Assembly (NCBI GenBank): GCA_026390435.1
Contig: JAPLFY010000037.1
Coordinates: 1 to 53,244, forward strand
DNA from: Pseudomonadota bacterium
Lineage (GTDB): Bacteria; Bdellovibrionota_B; Oligoflexia; Oligoflexales; CAIYRB01
Reading direction: 5' to 3'
Length of the DNA: 53,244 nt
Shown: positions 35,336 through 42,023 of the stretch, one piece after another
How the letters are laid out: every line of letters begins with the position of its first letter
Position numbering within the stretch: the first letter of the stretch is position 1
Program-made: the position numbers and the translations under genes
Notes under the pieces: model-generated
Database searches by the model: none
What the model saw: the letters and a program-made list of their open reading frames with translations, nothing else
Told to the model about the DNA's origin: nothing

Positions 35336-36277
35336 ATGCAGAGATATCAGCGGCCGAAGATCGCAAATAATATCCTTGAGACTATCGGTAATACTCCGTT
35401 AGTGCGCCTGAATAAGTTGAGCAAGGATGTGCAGGCGCAGATCCTGCTGAAGTTAGAATTTTTCAATCCGCTGTCGAGTGTCAAAGATCGTATTGGCGCG
35501 GCTATGATTGAGGCGGCAGAAAAATCTGGTGCCCTTAAAGCTGGGGCCACGATAGTTGAACCAACCAGCGGCAACACGGGCATTGGTCTAGCTTTTGTGG
35601 CAGCACAAAAAGGCTATCATTTGATCCTCACAATGCCTGAGACCATGAGTATTGAGCGCCGTAAAATGCTGAAAGCCCTAGGCGCAGAGTTGGTATTGAC
35701 TCCCGGTGAGCTTGGTATGAAAGGCGCCATTGCCAAGGCTGAGGAATTAGCGGCGAAAAACCCCGCATATTATATGCCCCAACAATTCAAAAACCCTGCC
35801 AATGTCGAAGCGCACAAGCACACGACCGCCCTGGAGATTTGGGAGGATACTGACGGCAAAGTGGATATTCTTGTCGCGGGTGTTGGAACCGGCGGTACGA
35901 TCACTGGTATTGCCAGCGTTATTAAAAAACTAAAACCTAGCTTCAAGGCGATCGCGGTCGAGCCCAAGGATTCACCCGTGCTATCGGGCGGGAGTCCTGG
36001 ACCGCATAAAATCCAAGGGATCGGAGCTGGTTTTGTACCAGACATTTTCGATGCGAAACTGGTTGATGAAGTCATTAAGGTGAGCAATGAGGACGCAGGG
36101 ACTTGGTCTCGTCGTGCGGCGAAAGAAGAAGGAGTGCTCTGTGGCATATCTTCTGGTGCCGCGATTGGTGCGGCTATTCAACTCGGTATGCGGCCAGAGA
36201 ATAAAGACAAGATTATCGTTGTGATCATCCCGAGTAGTGGTGAGAGGTATCTTTCGACTTGGTTGTTTGACGAGTAG
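35336..36277 (+). CDS. cysK: Cysteine synthase A (O-acetylserine sulfhydrylase)
   Basis: CysK joins O-acetylserine and sulfide to cysteine with PLP. The 313-residue length is typical. Lys50 in [14 protein letters not shown] should form the Schiff base, [18 protein letters not shown] binds substrate, [14 protein letters not shown] binds the cofactor phosphate, and [15 protein letters not shown] is present. AAGGAGG lies just before the ATG. It forms an operon with cysE, and CysE's usual C-terminal Ile is also found here (DGDGI), consistent with cysteine synthase complex formation. Confidence 0.96.
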
Positions 36278-36327
36278 AGGCCGGTCCTTCGCTTGACAGA
36301 ACAACGCGCCCTATGTTCTCCTAAAAG

Positions 36328-36468
36328 CTGTTCATCAAGACCGGTTGAGGGGTAGGCCCGACGATGCCGGGGCAACCACGCAAGCTTATGAAAGTAAATT
36401 GCGTATGGTGCCAAGTCCTGCGGTAGCAACCCGGCGTAAGCCAGGAGTGCAAACCGGAAGATGAGCAG
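36328..36468 (+). ncRNA. SAM-I-class (S-box) riboswitch aptamer
   Basis: The region has the S-box layout in order. P1 is CTGTTCATC (36328-36336) pairing over nine positions with GATGAGCAG (36460-36468). The junction reads AAGA, then the kink-turn/P2 core GAGGGG...GGCCC, with CCGGGGCAACC (the conserved GCAACC). P3 is ACGCAA...TTGCGT. The J3/4-P4 core is GGTGCCAAGTCCTGC and the end is GGAAGATGAG. It lies between cysK and metX on the coding strand, a classic place for methionine control. A TTGACA at 36293-36298 may be part of its own promoter. The SAM-I versus SAM-I/IV variant class cannot be fixed by eye. Confidence 0.9.
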
Positions 36469-36542
36469 AAAAGGTCCCCTGCGACTTCTTCTTGCACCCT
36501 TCTGTTCCCGCGTGTTCTTGGCACCCCAGTAAAGGGGACGAG
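36469..36542 (+). promoter_or_regulatory. Expression platform of the SAM riboswitch (translational type)
   Basis: GTCCCCT (36474-36480) is complementary to AGGGGAC (36533-36539), which contains the metX Shine-Dalgarno site. That hairpin would hide the ribosome site when the aptamer is closed. Two competing helices are visible. GGTGCCAAG (36407-36415) of the aptamer core pairs over nine bases with CTTGGCACC (36517-36525). GAGCAGAA (36463-36470), the P1 strand, pairs with TTCTGTTC (36500-36507). They nest inside each other and would open P1 and free the ribosome site. Confidence 0.7.
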
Positions 36543-37592
36543 ATGGTGGAGTTGGCAGGGGGAAGAGCAGAGTTGGGTGCGCGTGACGTTTGGCGCTCAC
36601 CGTCACCAGTAGGTGGCGTAATTAATCTGCTGCAGCGCCCTTTCGTGCTTGATTGCGGCCTTAACCTTCCTGAAGTCCAAGTTGCCTATGAGATTGTCGG
36701 CCCCAGCAACGCACCGGTGGTCGCGGTGTTGGGGGGTATTTCTGCGACCCGCTTTGTGACCGGGGGAGTTGATAATTCCGCGACAAGACCAAGGGGATGG
36801 TGGCGTGATCTCTGTGGGCCTGGCCAGGCTCTCGATAGCAACAAATATCGCATTTTGTCGTGGGACTTTCTTGGCGGCAATGGTGCTACCACTGGCCCTC
36901 GCTCATCAGATTACGCGGGTAAAACATTTCCCGATATCACCACTGGAGATCAAGCTCGTGTGCTTGCTGAGCTATTGCCTGTACTTGGTATTTCGAGCTT
37001 ACATGCGCTCGTCGGTGCATCTTACGGCGGTATGATAGCCTTAGCTTTTGGGGGGCGATTTCCCAAACTAGTAAAGCGGCTGTTAGTCATAAGTGCGGCC
37101 CATCGCAATGCGCCATTGGCCGTGGCTTGGCGAACTATACAACGGCAAATTGTTAACTTTGGACTGTCGGAAAATCGAGGGGGCGAAGCACTGGCTTTAG
37201 CTCGTGCTTTGGGTATGGCCACCTACCGTACACCAGATGAATTTGCGCAACGCTTTGGTGGAACGCGTTTGGATGCTAATGATCCAGATTCATTTCCGAT
37301 TTGGGACTATCTGCGGGCTCGTGGTGAGGACTATGTCAAGCACATGGATCCACATGCGTTCCTCTGCCTGTCTAGGTCCATCGACTTGCATGAAGCGGAT
37401 CCGCAGAAAATCTGTGTGCCAACCACAGTAGTAGCTGTGCGGCAGGACCAATTGGTGCCGCTGGCCCTACTGGAGGAGTTGGCTGATGCGCACGCTGGAT
37501 CATGTGAGCTTCAGGTCATCGATTCACTTTATGGTCATGATGCCTTTTTAAAAGAGCCAACATTTTTTTCCCGCTTATTGCGATGTTTATAG
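36543..37592 (+). CDS. metX: Homoserine O-acyltransferase (MetX family)
   Basis: MetX activates homoserine by acylation (acetyl in most members, succinyl in some) for methionine synthesis. The 349-residue alpha/beta hydrolase has the nucleophile Ser160 in VGASYGGMIAL, GGISATRFVTGG, the acid Asp in VRQDQLVPLALL and His in YGHDAFL. The ATG at 36543 is chosen because AGGGG lies five bases upstream; the TTG at 36492 lies inside the riboswitch expression platform. It is under the SAM riboswitch and leads metX-metB-hom. Acetyl versus succinyl specificity is not decided by eye. Confidence 0.9.
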   Translation: MVELAGGRAELGARDVWRSPSPVGGVINLLQRPFVLDCGLNLPEVQVAYEIVGPSNAPVVAVLGGISATRFVTGGVDNSATRPRGWWRDLCGPGQALDSNKYRILSWDFLGGNGATTGPRSSDYAGKTFPDITTGDQARVLAELLPVLGISSLHALVGASYGGMIALAFGGRFPKLVKRLLVISAAHRNAPLAVAWRTIQRQIVNFGLSENRGGEALALARALGMATYRTPDEFAQRFGGTRLDANDPDSFPIWDYLRARGEDYVKHMDPHAFLCLSRSIDLHEADPQKICVPTTVVAVRQDQLVPLALLEELADAHAGSCELQVIDSLYGHDAFLKEPTFFSRLLRCL

Positions 37593-37604: not shown

Positions 37605-38822
37605 GTGAGCGACTTTTCTGCAACTACCTGTGTACGTGCTGCCGTTGGGACCGATCAATCTTACGGCGCTGTGATTCCACCCCTACATCTCTCTACTAAC
37701 TTTACATTTAAGGGGCTAGGGGACCGTCGGAAGTATGACTATACTCGCTCCGGCAATCCTACCCGCGACATCCTAGGTGAAACTTTAGCCGAACTCGAAG
37801 AGGGGCATGGTGCCATCGTAACCAGTTCGGGGATGGCAGCGCTCACGGCGCTGGTGCATTTGGTCGACGCAGATCAATTGATTTTGGCACCTCATGACTG
37901 CTACGGTGGAACTTTTCGCCTACTAACAGCGCTCCATAAGCAGGGTAGAGCTCGGGTGCTTTTCCTGGATCAAGGGGATCATCGGGCCTTTGAGAATGCC
38001 TTTACGTCCGGAGCCGAAAAAGTTGGCTTGGTGTTGGTGGAGACGCCCAGCAATCCCCTTCTCAGAGTTGTAGATATCGCCGCAATTAGCGCGATTTGTC
38101 GGCGCCACGGGGCTCTTTTGGCGGTCGATAACACCTTTTTATCGCCGGCTTTGCAGCGGCCCTTAACTTTGGGCGCTGATCTGGTCGTTCATTCGACGAC
38201 GAAATACTTAAATGGTCATAGCGACGTCGTCGGTGGCGCTGTGATCGCTAATACTGCTGAATTAAGCGATCGTCTAGCCTGGTGGGCCAACTGCCTTGGC
38301 ATCACTGGAGCTCCCTTCGATTCCTTTTTGACCTTGCGTGGCGTGCGGACTCTTTCTGCTCGCATTCGCCTGCATGAAGAAAATGCTGCGGCCGTCGCGC
38401 AATTACTGAGCGATCACCCGGCGGTAGCCAAGGTTTATTATCCCGGTCTGGCAAGTCATCCAGGTCATGCATTGGCGCGGGCCCAGCAGCAGGGCTTCGG
38501 TGGCATTATCAGCTTTGAATTAAATGCCGGTATTGCGGGCGTTCATGCATTTTTAGAGGGGTTAACCTGCTTTTCTTTGGCCGAGTCACTGGGTGGCGTT
38601 GAGAGTTTAGTGGCACATCCGGCATCTATGACTCATGCATCGATGGCAGCAGAAGCTCAGGCACGGGCGGGAATTACACCGCAGTTGCTGCGTCTGTCTA
38701 TCGGTATCGAAGCCACTAAGGATCTGATTTGCGATGTACGTCTTGGTCTCGACCGTGTCCAAGCGCTACGAACGCAACCAAGGTCTGATGTTGACTCGGT
38801 GAGTCGCGCGGCAACTTACTGA
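37605..38822 (+). CDS. metB: Cystathionine gamma-synthase / trans-sulfuration PLP enzyme
   Basis: The 405-residue enzyme belongs to the Cys/Met metabolism PLP family. Motifs are YDYTRSGNPTRDILGETLAELE, TSSGMAALTAL, VETPSNPLLRVVD, AVDNTFLSPALQRPL, the Schiff-base Lys200 in HSTTKYLNGHSDVVGGAV, and SLGGVESLVAHPASMTHASM. It would combine activated homoserine with cysteine to give cystathionine. Direct sulfhydrylation and gamma-lyase activity occur in close relatives. The start is GTG at 37605 with AGGAG upstream, 12 bases after metX. Placement after metX behind the SAM riboswitch supports a biosynthetic MetB role. Confidence 0.87.
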   Translation: MSDFSATTCVRAAVGTDQSYGAVIPPLHLSTNFTFKGLGDRRKYDYTRSGNPTRDILGETLAELEEGHGAIVTSSGMAALTALVHLVDADQLILAPHDCYGGTFRLLTALHKQGRARVLFLDQGDHRAFENAFTSGAEKVGLVLVETPSNPLLRVVDIAAISAICRRHGALLAVDNTFLSPALQRPLTLGADLVVHSTTKYLNGHSDVVGGAVIANTAELSDRLAWWANCLGITGAPFDSFLTLRGVRTLSARIRLHEENAAAVAQLLSDHPAVAKVYYPGLASHPGHALARAQQQGFGGIISFELNAGIAGVHAFLEGLTCFSLAESLGGVESLVAHPASMTHASMAAEAQARAGITPQLLRLSIGIEATKDLICDVRLGLDRVQALRTQPRSDVDSVSRAATY

Positions 38823-38867: not shown

Positions 38868-40004
38868 ATGTCTATTGCTAATCTGAGTATTGATGCAGGT
38901 CTGAGCGTTAAACGAGTCGCTCGTTGGCCGTCACCAAAGCAAAAAGCCATCTGTGTAGCTATTGTCGGCCCAGGTGGCGTTGGTAGTACCCTGCTCGAGC
39001 AATGGCAGCATATCCAGCCTCAATTGATGATGCGGTCTAGTGCTCGTTTAGATTTGCGTGCCTTGTGTAACTCATCGCGCATGTTACTGGCGGCGAAACC
39101 TATCGATGTGGCGGAGTGGCAACAGGCGTTAGCACAGTCAAATTCAGAGCCTAATCTTGGAGATCTAAATTTATTTTTGCGCCATCAAGAAGGTCCAGTC
39201 GTGGTGATCGATGTTTCAGCCTCCGAATCCGTATCGAAGCAACATGAACATTGGCTGCGGTGCGGCTTTACCGTACTAACGGCGAATAAGTATGCGGCTG
39301 CATCTGCTTCACACCATTATGCGGCACTGCGTCATGCGGAGGCGATGGGTGGGGGGCGTTACCTATGCGAGACTACGGTTGGCGCTGGCTTGCCGCTTAT
39401 TGGGCTGATTTCTGACTTGGTGCGAACCGGTGATGAAGTGCTGAAAATAGAGGGCATACTCTCGGGTACTTTGTCTCACCTTTTGGCTCGCCTTGAGGTT
39501 GGTGAGGCATTCGCAGATGTGTTGCGTGACCTACATTCATCGGGTTTTACGGAGCCTGATCCTCGCAATGATTTATCCGGCCTCGATGTTGCTCGTAAGC
39601 TCGTTATACTCGGGCGTACGGCAGATATTAAGGTGGATCTTGACGACGTCAGTCTCACTAGCTGTGCCACGACTGGGGATCGGTCAACTGAGTCTGTAGT
39701 GAAATTCCTTGAGACCTGTGACCAATACAATCAGCTGCTAGCAGCTCAAGTGAGTGCGGCTCGCAGAAGAAATTCAGTGTTGAGATATGTAGCGACTATT
39801 GAGCGCGGCGGACGTGCTGTAGTCGCTCCTAAAGTTTTAGCCAATGATCATCCAATGGCAAGGTTGCCGGCAGGTGATAATTTGGTCCGCATCACAACAA
39901 AGCGCTACCAAAGCAGCCCGCTGGTGATTCAGGGGCCTGGAGCAGGCAGAGAGGTTACCGCTGCTGGCTTACTGGCTGACTTGATCCGTTGTGCCTCACG
40001 CTGA
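38868..40004 (+). CDS. hom: Homoserine dehydrogenase (monofunctional, ThrA/MetL-type domain)
   Basis: The 378-residue enzyme reduces aspartate semialdehyde to homoserine. It has the nucleotide-binding AIVGPGGVGSTLLEQW, the substrate Lys in LTANKYAAAS, CETTVGAGLPLIG, LSGTLSHLLARLE and the catalytic segment DLSGLDVARKLVILGR. It resembles the C-terminal half of ThrA/MetL without the aspartokinase half and also lacks an ACT domain, so feedback by threonine is not expected from domains. It follows metB after 45 bases; GGGAG lies 12 bases upstream, partly within a small TCACT/AGTGA hairpin. It probably shares the SAM-controlled transcript. Confidence 0.92.
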   Translation: MSIANLSIDAGLSVKRVARWPSPKQKAICVAIVGPGGVGSTLLEQWQHIQPQLMMRSSARLDLRALCNSSRMLLAAKPIDVAEWQQALAQSNSEPNLGDLNLFLRHQEGPVVVIDVSASESVSKQHEHWLRCGFTVLTANKYAAASASHHYAALRHAEAMGGGRYLCETTVGAGLPLIGLISDLVRTGDEVLKIEGILSGTLSHLLARLEVGEAFADVLRDLHSSGFTEPDPRNDLSGLDVARKLVILGRTADIKVDLDDVSLTSCATTGDRSTESVVKFLETCDQYNQLLAAQVSAARRRNSVLRYVATIERGGRAVVAPKVLANDHPMARLPAGDNLVRITTKRYQSSPLVIQGPGAGREVTAAGLLADLIRCASR

Positions 40005-40205: not shown

Positions 40206-42023
40206 GTGCGCCATCCTAAGATGATGTGTTTTGCCTTTTTTTTCGTTCTAGCATGCTCTAGTCATCCATCGTCGCAAGTTGCAGCCACAGGCTACTCAAA
40301 TACTCGGCCTTCTGTTGGGGCACCTTTGAGTAGTTATGATCCTGAAATGCCGCTCCACACGCGTGGTCGATTTATCGTGGATGCCAATGAGCGCCGAGTT
40401 AAATTGGCGTCGGTGAATTGGTACGGCGCTAGCGATACTTACATGGTGCCTGGCGGACTAAACCGCGCTCCCCTGACTCATATTGTGGCGCAAATTAAAG
40501 CATTGGGGTTTAATTCTGTTCGCCTGCCCTTTTCAAACTTTATGCTCTCTGCCAGTCGTGTAGATGACCAGGCTATTGCTGCAAATCCACAGCTATTTGG
40601 CCTCACCCCTATTGCCGTTTACGACCGGGTGGTCGAGGCCCTGACTGATGCTGGAATTTTAGTTATTTTAAATAACCATACAACGCATCCAATGTGGTGT
40701 TGTTCCTATGATCATGATGGCCTTTGGTACACATCTGACTACTCGGAGGAGCGATGGCTTGATGACTGGGGCTTCATGGCTCGGCGTTACCGAGCCAACA
40801 CTCGAGTGGTAGGCGCTGATTTGAGGAATGAGATTCGGGTGGCAAAATGGAGCGGCACTTTTGTCCCAAGCGCGCCAAATTGGGGGAGAGGGCCGAACGA
40901 TTGGCGGGCTGCAGCTGAGCGCGCTGGTGCGCGGGTATCGTCGGAGAACCCGCAGTTGTTGATTATTGTCGAAGGAATCAATTTCCCTCGCGATCATCTT
41001 CGCGGTGTTTACCTCGACCCCGTAAGGCTGCCTTTAGCTAATCGCTTAGTTTATGCAGCGCATAACTATGCATTTACGGCACCAAGTCTGATTGGCCCGA
41101 CCTACGGTCAGTTGGATCAAGCTAAATTTAATGCGCTTATGCACCAGGAATGGGGCTTTGTGGTTACACCCAACCAAGCTTTCACTGCTCCAGTTTGGGT
41201 GAGTGAGTTCGGAGAGTCTAGTCATACATTAGATCGCAGTTGGTATGCGCATATCATAGAGTACTTGCGCGAAGGTGATTTTGATTTTGCTTACTGGGCT
41301 TTGAATGCAGGTCCGAAAGCTTCGGGAGAAGAGGAGACATTTTCCCTTCTGAGCGATGACTGGAGTTCGCCGCTCAGTGATTGGCGGATCCCGCCATTGA
41401 AGACTCTGATGCGGCCACGCATCGGCCCTGGTGTAGAGCCGCAATGGGAAGATCAACCCCAGAACCATTTTGCCGTGCAAACATTTAGCGACGGAGACAG
41501 CATTCAATCCTCGGACCTTCAGGATTGGATGCCTAACACCTTTAAGTCCAGATGTCGCGAAGGTGAGCGCGTAGTGGGACTGAGTATTGGCAAACGCGCA
41601 GCTCAGTCGTTTGCCCATGGCGTGCTGTGCAGCGATTATGGACTTGATCTGGGCATCGGCAAGCTTCTGACTTTGTCTAATAATAACCATAACCAAGGTG
41701 ATGTGGGTGCCCATACTCAAGGCAGAGATTGGGCGGACGGTGCTATCAAAATGGAGTGCGCCCTGAACTCTTACGTAGCAGGAGCTGCACAAACGCGGCG
41801 AGCACTTAAATATTGGTTCGCGGGTGTGCTGTGTGCTGAAGCTAATAAATCTTTAGGCGCTCAATGTCATAGCATTAATTTTTTCGACCACGATGATCGC
41901 GCCACGGAGATCCCAGGTGATTGGGATCCGCATATGCACAAGGGACAATGTGCATTAGACGAGTATGTAGCCGGAGTTAGTGCGGCTAAGGGGCATGTTA
42001 GGTCACTACTCTGCTGCAAATGA
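40206..42023 (+). CDS. Secreted GH5-like glycoside hydrolase lipoprotein with Cys-paired C-terminal repeats
   Basis: The 605-residue protein starts at GTG (GAGG upstream) with a lipoprotein signal (FFFVLACSS, Cys17). Residues about 50-400 form a GH5-type barrel: VKLASVNWYGASDT, FNSVRLPFSN, VILNNHTTHPMW, the acid/base Glu209 in DLRNEIR, VYAAHNY and the nucleophile Glu334 in WVSEFGESSH. GH5 enzymes cut beta-1,4-glucans, mannans or glycolipids; the substrate is not evident. From about 445 the tail repeats a motif beginning at Cys450, Cys518 and Cys582 (Cys, then [VY]VxG, then LLC or VLC). It may be a carbohydrate-binding module, which I infer only from position. Confidence 0.8.
   Translation: MRHPKMMCFAFFFVLACSSHPSSQVAATGYSNTRPSVGAPLSSYDPEMPLHTRGRFIVDANERRVKLASVNWYGASDTYMVPGGLNRAPLTHIVAQIKALGFNSVRLPFSNFMLSASRVDDQAIAANPQLFGLTPIAVYDRVVEALTDAGILVILNNHTTHPMWCCSYDHDGLWYTSDYSEERWLDDWGFMARRYRANTRVVGADLRNEIRVAKWSGTFVPSAPNWGRGPNDWRAAAERAGARVSSENPQLLIIVEGINFPRDHLRGVYLDPVRLPLANRLVYAAHNYAFTAPSLIGPTYGQLDQAKFNALMHQEWGFVVTPNQAFTAPVWVSEFGESSHTLDRSWYAHIIEYLREGDFDFAYWALNAGPKASGEEETFSLLSDDWSSPLSDWRIPPLKTLMRPRIGPGVEPQWEDQPQNHFAVQTFSDGDSIQSSDLQDWMPNTFKSRCREGERVVGLSIGKRAAQSFAHGVLCSDYGLDLGIGKLLTLSNNNHNQGDVGAHTQGRDWADGAIKMECALNSYVAGAAQTRRALKYWFAGVLCAEANKSLGAQCHSINFFDHDDRATEIPGDWDPHMHKGQCALDEYVAGVSAAKGHVRSLLCCK

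Follow-up and report, generated by a model that had tools for sequence, protein, structure and literature searches.

A predicted translational SAM-I riboswitch ahead of metX-metB-hom in which one strand may pair with either the aptamer core or the ribosome-binding site

Introduction

A SAM-I aptamer precedes the metX-metB-hom genes of an uncultured Pseudomonadota bacterium, and the locus raises the question of how SAM could control the expression of this operon. Of the SAM-I switches whose function has been characterised, the majority act on transcription (PMC7270179). In yitJ of Bacillus subtilis, switching is done by one strand of P1, and P3/P4 remain intact in the model (PMC3656099). For the met operon of Xanthomonas campestris, translational control by SAM-I_Xcc has been shown experimentally, with SAM rearranging P1, P4-6 and P7a (Tang 2020, PMC7270179). 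The standard translational scheme pairs an anti-sequestor with a sequestor of the Shine-Dalgarno sequence (SD) (PMC2258182). Here, we analysed a stretch of 53,244 nt (contig JAPLFY010000037.1, hereafter the window) together with metX leaders from related genomes. All window features given below lie on the forward strand.

Results

A covariance search over the whole window returned a match to RF00162 (SAM-I) at 36329-36467 with 76.2 bits (E 3.5e-16; gathering cut-off 44.4 bits). RF00162 was the top-scoring family of clan CL00012, and two overlapping weaker matches of the same clan lost to it, which confirms the SAM-I class proposed in the initial annotation. The aptamer (36328-36468) is bounded by P1 (36328-36336 with 36460-36468; nine pairs including one G-U), which closes the four-way core and has 8-9 pairs in the congeners. 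It contains the core elements GCAACC (36372-36377) and GGTGCCAAG (36407-36415), and it presumably binds SAM. The copy in the metX leader is the only SAM-I match in this genome.

The genes behind the aptamer were assigned by protein family models, which support metX-metB-hom as the target operon. The product of metX (36543-37592, start codon ATG at 36543-36545) is of the homoserine O-succinyltransferase type, scoring above the cut-off of NF006449 and well below the cut-offs of the acetyltransferase models. It is followed by metB for cystathionine gamma-synthase (37605-38822; TIGR02080 above cut-off) and by hom for homoserine dehydrogenase (38868-40004; PF00742, PF03447). The leader is preceded by a serine acetyltransferase gene and by cysK. 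RF00162 stands ahead of methionine/SAM/sulphur genes here, as it does in all congeners. After a gap of 200 nt, hom is followed on the same strand by a gene for a GH5 cellulase-like protein (40206-42023), and the window itself starts within a 23S rRNA gene, with 5S rRNA behind it (positions 1-644).

Between cysK and P1, we found a promoter-like block (36293-36322) consisting of TTGACA (36293-36298), 18 nt and TGT-TCTCCT (TCTCCT at 36317-36322), with an upstream TG before TCTCCT; it ends 5 nt before P1. A generic promoter scan did not list this block, and its -10 element is poor. All congeners and the order-level locus L087 keep the block at a similar distance from P1, with a differing upstream gene. 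Conservation of the block next to a changing upstream gene makes it most likely that the riboswitch has a transcript of its own, which would begin with the first bases of P1 at about 36327-36330.

Each of the six species of the genus that were compared carries one RF00162 match; across the order, 8 of 43 genomes have a match, and across the class, 11 of 58. SAM-I lies ahead of metX at all 16 closest metX loci and at nearly all more distant ones, so this arrangement is a widespread feature. At the metX locus of a Gemmatimonadetes MAG (L073, 3573-3650), SAM_alpha (SAM-II, RF00521) takes the place of SAM-I. The order-level locus L088 (1501-1606, reverse strand) has a terminator-like ACTCCCG-TTTATATA-GGGAGTTTTTTT just after its aptamer; the 5' arm complements the aptamer of the same leader (CGGGAGT), which would give a three-strand logic with transcriptional output.

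Within the window, the region next to the SD contains a strand with two possible partners. Strand A, GGUGCCAAGUCCUGCGG (36407-36423), covers the 3' strand of P3, the junction and the 5' strand of P4, and strand B, CCGCGUGUUCUUGGCACCCC (36508-36527), would serve as anti-aptamer and anti-SD strand in one. In B, CTTGGCACC (36517-36525) is the exact complement of GGTGCCAAG, with 9/9 Watson-Crick pairs, and the A:B helix extends past the core by pairing of CUGCGG (36418-36423) with 36508-36514. By itself, a nine-nucleotide complement to some part of the aptamer is just mildly surprising (134 of 3000 shuffles), but one to the core is clearly so (11 of 3000). The full A:B duplex has an energy of -25.7 kcal/mol, which 1 of 2000 dinucleotide shuffles reached, and is the best among all 121 aptamer 20-mers. 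In the congeners, the corresponding numbers of shuffles out of 2000 are 2 (L002), 24 (L086), 40 (L003), 55 (L082) and 184 (L004, where the match is weak), and the core-complement strand lies at about -37 to -15 from the ATG in 5 of 6 congeners. What is kept in the genus is complementarity to the core at the same place and not the letters of CTTGGCACC. The earlier claim of an anti-aptamer strand directed at the conserved core therefore holds for the pairing, which exceeds chance, and fails for its letter-for-letter form. Another candidate for a conserved anti-core strand, CTTGCACC near 36490, was considered since L003 and L082 keep TTCTTGCACCC; it was rejected, as in every congener the best duplex is formed by the strand beside the SD.

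Strand C (36533-36549) comprises the SD AGGGGA (36533-36538), the start codon and the first codon after it. An unconstrained fold places both the SD and the initiation codon within a local B:C hairpin (36508-36527 with 36534-36549), with the pairings CCCC/GGGG (36524-36527/36534-36537), UCUUG/CGAGA (36516-36520/36539-36543) and CCGC/GUGG (36508-36511/36546-36549). Equivalents with changed inner stems are present in L082 (GUCC/GGAC) and L003 (CCUCU/AGAGG); the hairpin of L004 and L086 adopts another register (CUCCGC/GCGGRG). Its stability is modest (z -1.35; 51 of 500 shuffles as stable). A column alignment of the congener hairpins, which is poor and varies in hairpin length, has six predicted pairs, one of them changed on both sides; almost no formal covariation is visible in it, partly owing to the length changes. 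Computationally, the SD hairpin and the anti-sequestor helix share strand B and exclude each other.

Sequence and folding together make it probable that the leader is a translational OFF switch, as the initial annotation had proposed, with SAM shutting translation of metX (with metB-hom) via strands A, B and C. Strand B would pair with either A or C, and the A:B pairing would break P3, P4 and, by crossing it, P1. Without SAM, B would leave the polymerase before C and capture A, so that the SD stays free and the switch is ON. With SAM, the aptamer would be locked and A unavailable, so that B closes the local SD/AUG hairpin and the switch is OFF. The computed energies leave SAM, Mg2+, tertiary contacts and the ribosome out of account. 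They give an ON-minus-OFF difference of -9 to -11 kcal/mol for transcripts that end 16 to 8 nt before the ATG, of about 0 for ends at +9 to +12, and of +6 to +11 kcal/mol beyond +18, once roughly six codons have been transcribed. Because A:B is favoured early and the closed form late in the transcript, the ligand-free ON form would be a kinetic product, which SAM would prevent by locking the core. L002, L003 and L082 likewise prefer ON early and reverse after the start codon. L004 and L086 also have a clear early ON preference, with a late reversal to OFF that is weak or absent. In the window, the modelled probability of an unpaired SD is 0.78 with A:B forced versus 0.42; in the L086 model the SD is not opened in the ON state. 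A further point against the scheme comes from Xanthomonas, where the SD stayed paired in vitro without SAM until tRNA was added (PMC7270179).

The initial annotation had placed a different switch behind the same aptamer. In that model, SAM would let GTCCCCT (36474-36480) hide its complement AGGGGAC (36533-36539), and without SAM two nested helices, the core helix and a second one (36463-36470 with 36500-36507; eight pairs, one G-U), would leave GTCCCCT looped. Every element it listed (P1, GCAACC, the core element, GTCCCCT/AGGGGAC and both helices) is present where it had been placed, and the nearest sister, L002, shares the seven-nucleotide complementarity. Folding leaves the core helix usable but disfavours the other two parts: an OFF fold with GTCCCCT reaches -75.6 kcal/mol versus -96.9 kcal/mol with the local hairpin (21 kcal/mol worse), and forcing both nested helices into the ON fold costs 6.2 kcal/mol (-82.1 versus -88.3 kcal/mol for the core helix alone). 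The homologous leaders divide in the same way: the core complement recurs in the genus, whereas the seven-pair anti-SD is confined to the window and L002, and neither it nor the second helix, which most congeners lack, is found in the leader sequences of L003, L082, L004 and L086. On the grounds of folding energy and congener comparison, the earlier model probably picked the wrong SD-hiding strand and the wrong second helix, and as a whole it is unlikely. The folds instead indicate that the SD is most likely hidden by strand B rather than by GTCCCCT at 36474, which is simpler than the earlier reading: one strand would choose the sensor core or the ribosome-binding site.

Two further explanations were weighed against this three-strand translational switch. 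Control could be mainly transcriptional, by Rho-dependent or hairpin-assisted termination in the leader, as the terminator-like hairpin after the order-level L088 aptamer and a small transcriptional effect in Xanthomonas (PMC7270179) would allow. A scan of 36150-36620 for terminator-like sites found none, however, and the alternative helix takes in the SD and the start codon, which makes this explanation quite improbable. The leader could also be a dual sensor, with SAM acting via the aptamer and uncharged initiator tRNA freeing the SD by binding the anti-SD. By analogy this may be suggested by the aptamer class, operon and translational logic shared with SAM-I_Xcc (PMC7270179). Since the known sequence signature of tRNA binding is limited to a CC in the anti-SD of Xcc, it offers no discriminating sequence here, and the anti-SD strands of the congeners differ; we regard a dual sensor as very improbable.

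A wider comparison covered 70 proteobacterial metX leaders, or 52 after removal of similar platforms. An 8-nt complement to the core/P4 strand is present in 31 of the 70 (7.8 in shuffles), whose relatedness is only partly controlled, and in 25 of the 52 (6.2). Swapping platforms between species gave a mean of 23.8, and at least 31 in 2 of 300 permutations (8 of 300 for the reduced set). Complements of 9 nt number 17 versus 2.3 in shuffles, but swapped platforms match this in 41 of 300 permutations, so that the excess holds over shuffles and not over swaps. The P1 5' strand has a complement in 21 of 70 leaders (3.8 expected) and in 11 of 52 (2.8), whereas the P1 3' strand has no excess (2 of 70 versus 2.6; 2 of 52 versus 2.0). 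Over the 70 leaders, most RNAduplex energies fall short of significance (median z -0.65), since a long GC-rich platform readily forms good pairings by chance; contiguous-helix counts are more telling across this set. A few distant leaders have mis-chosen start codons and were excluded from arguments on position. A further count, in which B pairs close to the SD in 33 of 33 distant leaders, was not taken as evidence, the search being centred on B and uncontrolled.

Targeting of the core/P4 strand across metX leaders appears from these counts to be a lead with good support, not proof. As such complements are common in proteobacterial metX leaders, the anti-aptamer copy of the core can no longer be called unusual. 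It is plausible, if still tentative, that switches of the proteobacterial metX SAM-I group work by invasion of the P1 5' strand and of the conserved core (P3/P4 strand) instead of using the P1 3' strand, that the invader doubles as the SD-hiding strand, and that the genus of the window is a variant targeting GGUGCCAAG itself.

Discussion

The system is ordinary in kind with a well-traced mechanism: a translational SAM-I switch whose same-operon case is already characterised in Xanthomonas (PMC7270179). Like SAM-I_Xcc, the leader places SAM-I before a homoserine acyltransferase-metB-hom operon, lacks an intrinsic terminator and is predicted to be a translational OFF switch. The Xcc platform is reported to comprise three hairpins (P5-P7) and to bind tRNA, whereas the window has a platform of 78 nt with one SD/AUG hairpin, the 5' strand of which complements the aptamer core. 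The rearrangement of P1, P4-6 and P7a in Xcc fits the core/P4 and P1 pattern of the metX leaders. With yitJ, another RF00162 S-box, the window shares P1-P4 and the conserved core; in contrast to the transcriptional P1-strand switching of yitJ, its ON helix would invade the P3/P4 core, with the SD as output.

The proteobacterial metX leaders (Steroidobacteraceae and others, L005-L081) resemble the window in carrying SAM-I before metX, and many of their platforms have one strand that complements both the core and the SD region, such as GCUUCGCAGGGGUU in L016. Their platforms are directed at the 5' strand of P4 (ACUCCUGCGG) and frequently also at that of P1, whereas the window targets GGUGCCAAG and CUGCGG. 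This study extends the known translational SAM-I switches by a predicted case from an uncultured lineage, whose traceable three-strand mechanism is testable by a few mutations. The wider comparison suggests that the invariant SAM-binding core has repeatedly been reused in evolution as a switching strand. Such reuse would link aptamer and expression platform to each other and help to predict the function of unannotated SAM-I leaders.

Individual leaders of this group show further arrangements. In L008, L009, L016, L017, L051, L057 and others, a platform strand (e.g. CUCCGCAGGAG) complements the P4 strand of the aptamer and the SD region (GCGGAG), and the neighbouring CUCGGUGA often complements the P1 5' strand. 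In L033, L039, L040, L047, L061 and L062, metX apparently starts about 15-45 nt after P1, with scant room for a separate platform, and P1 itself may conceal the SD.
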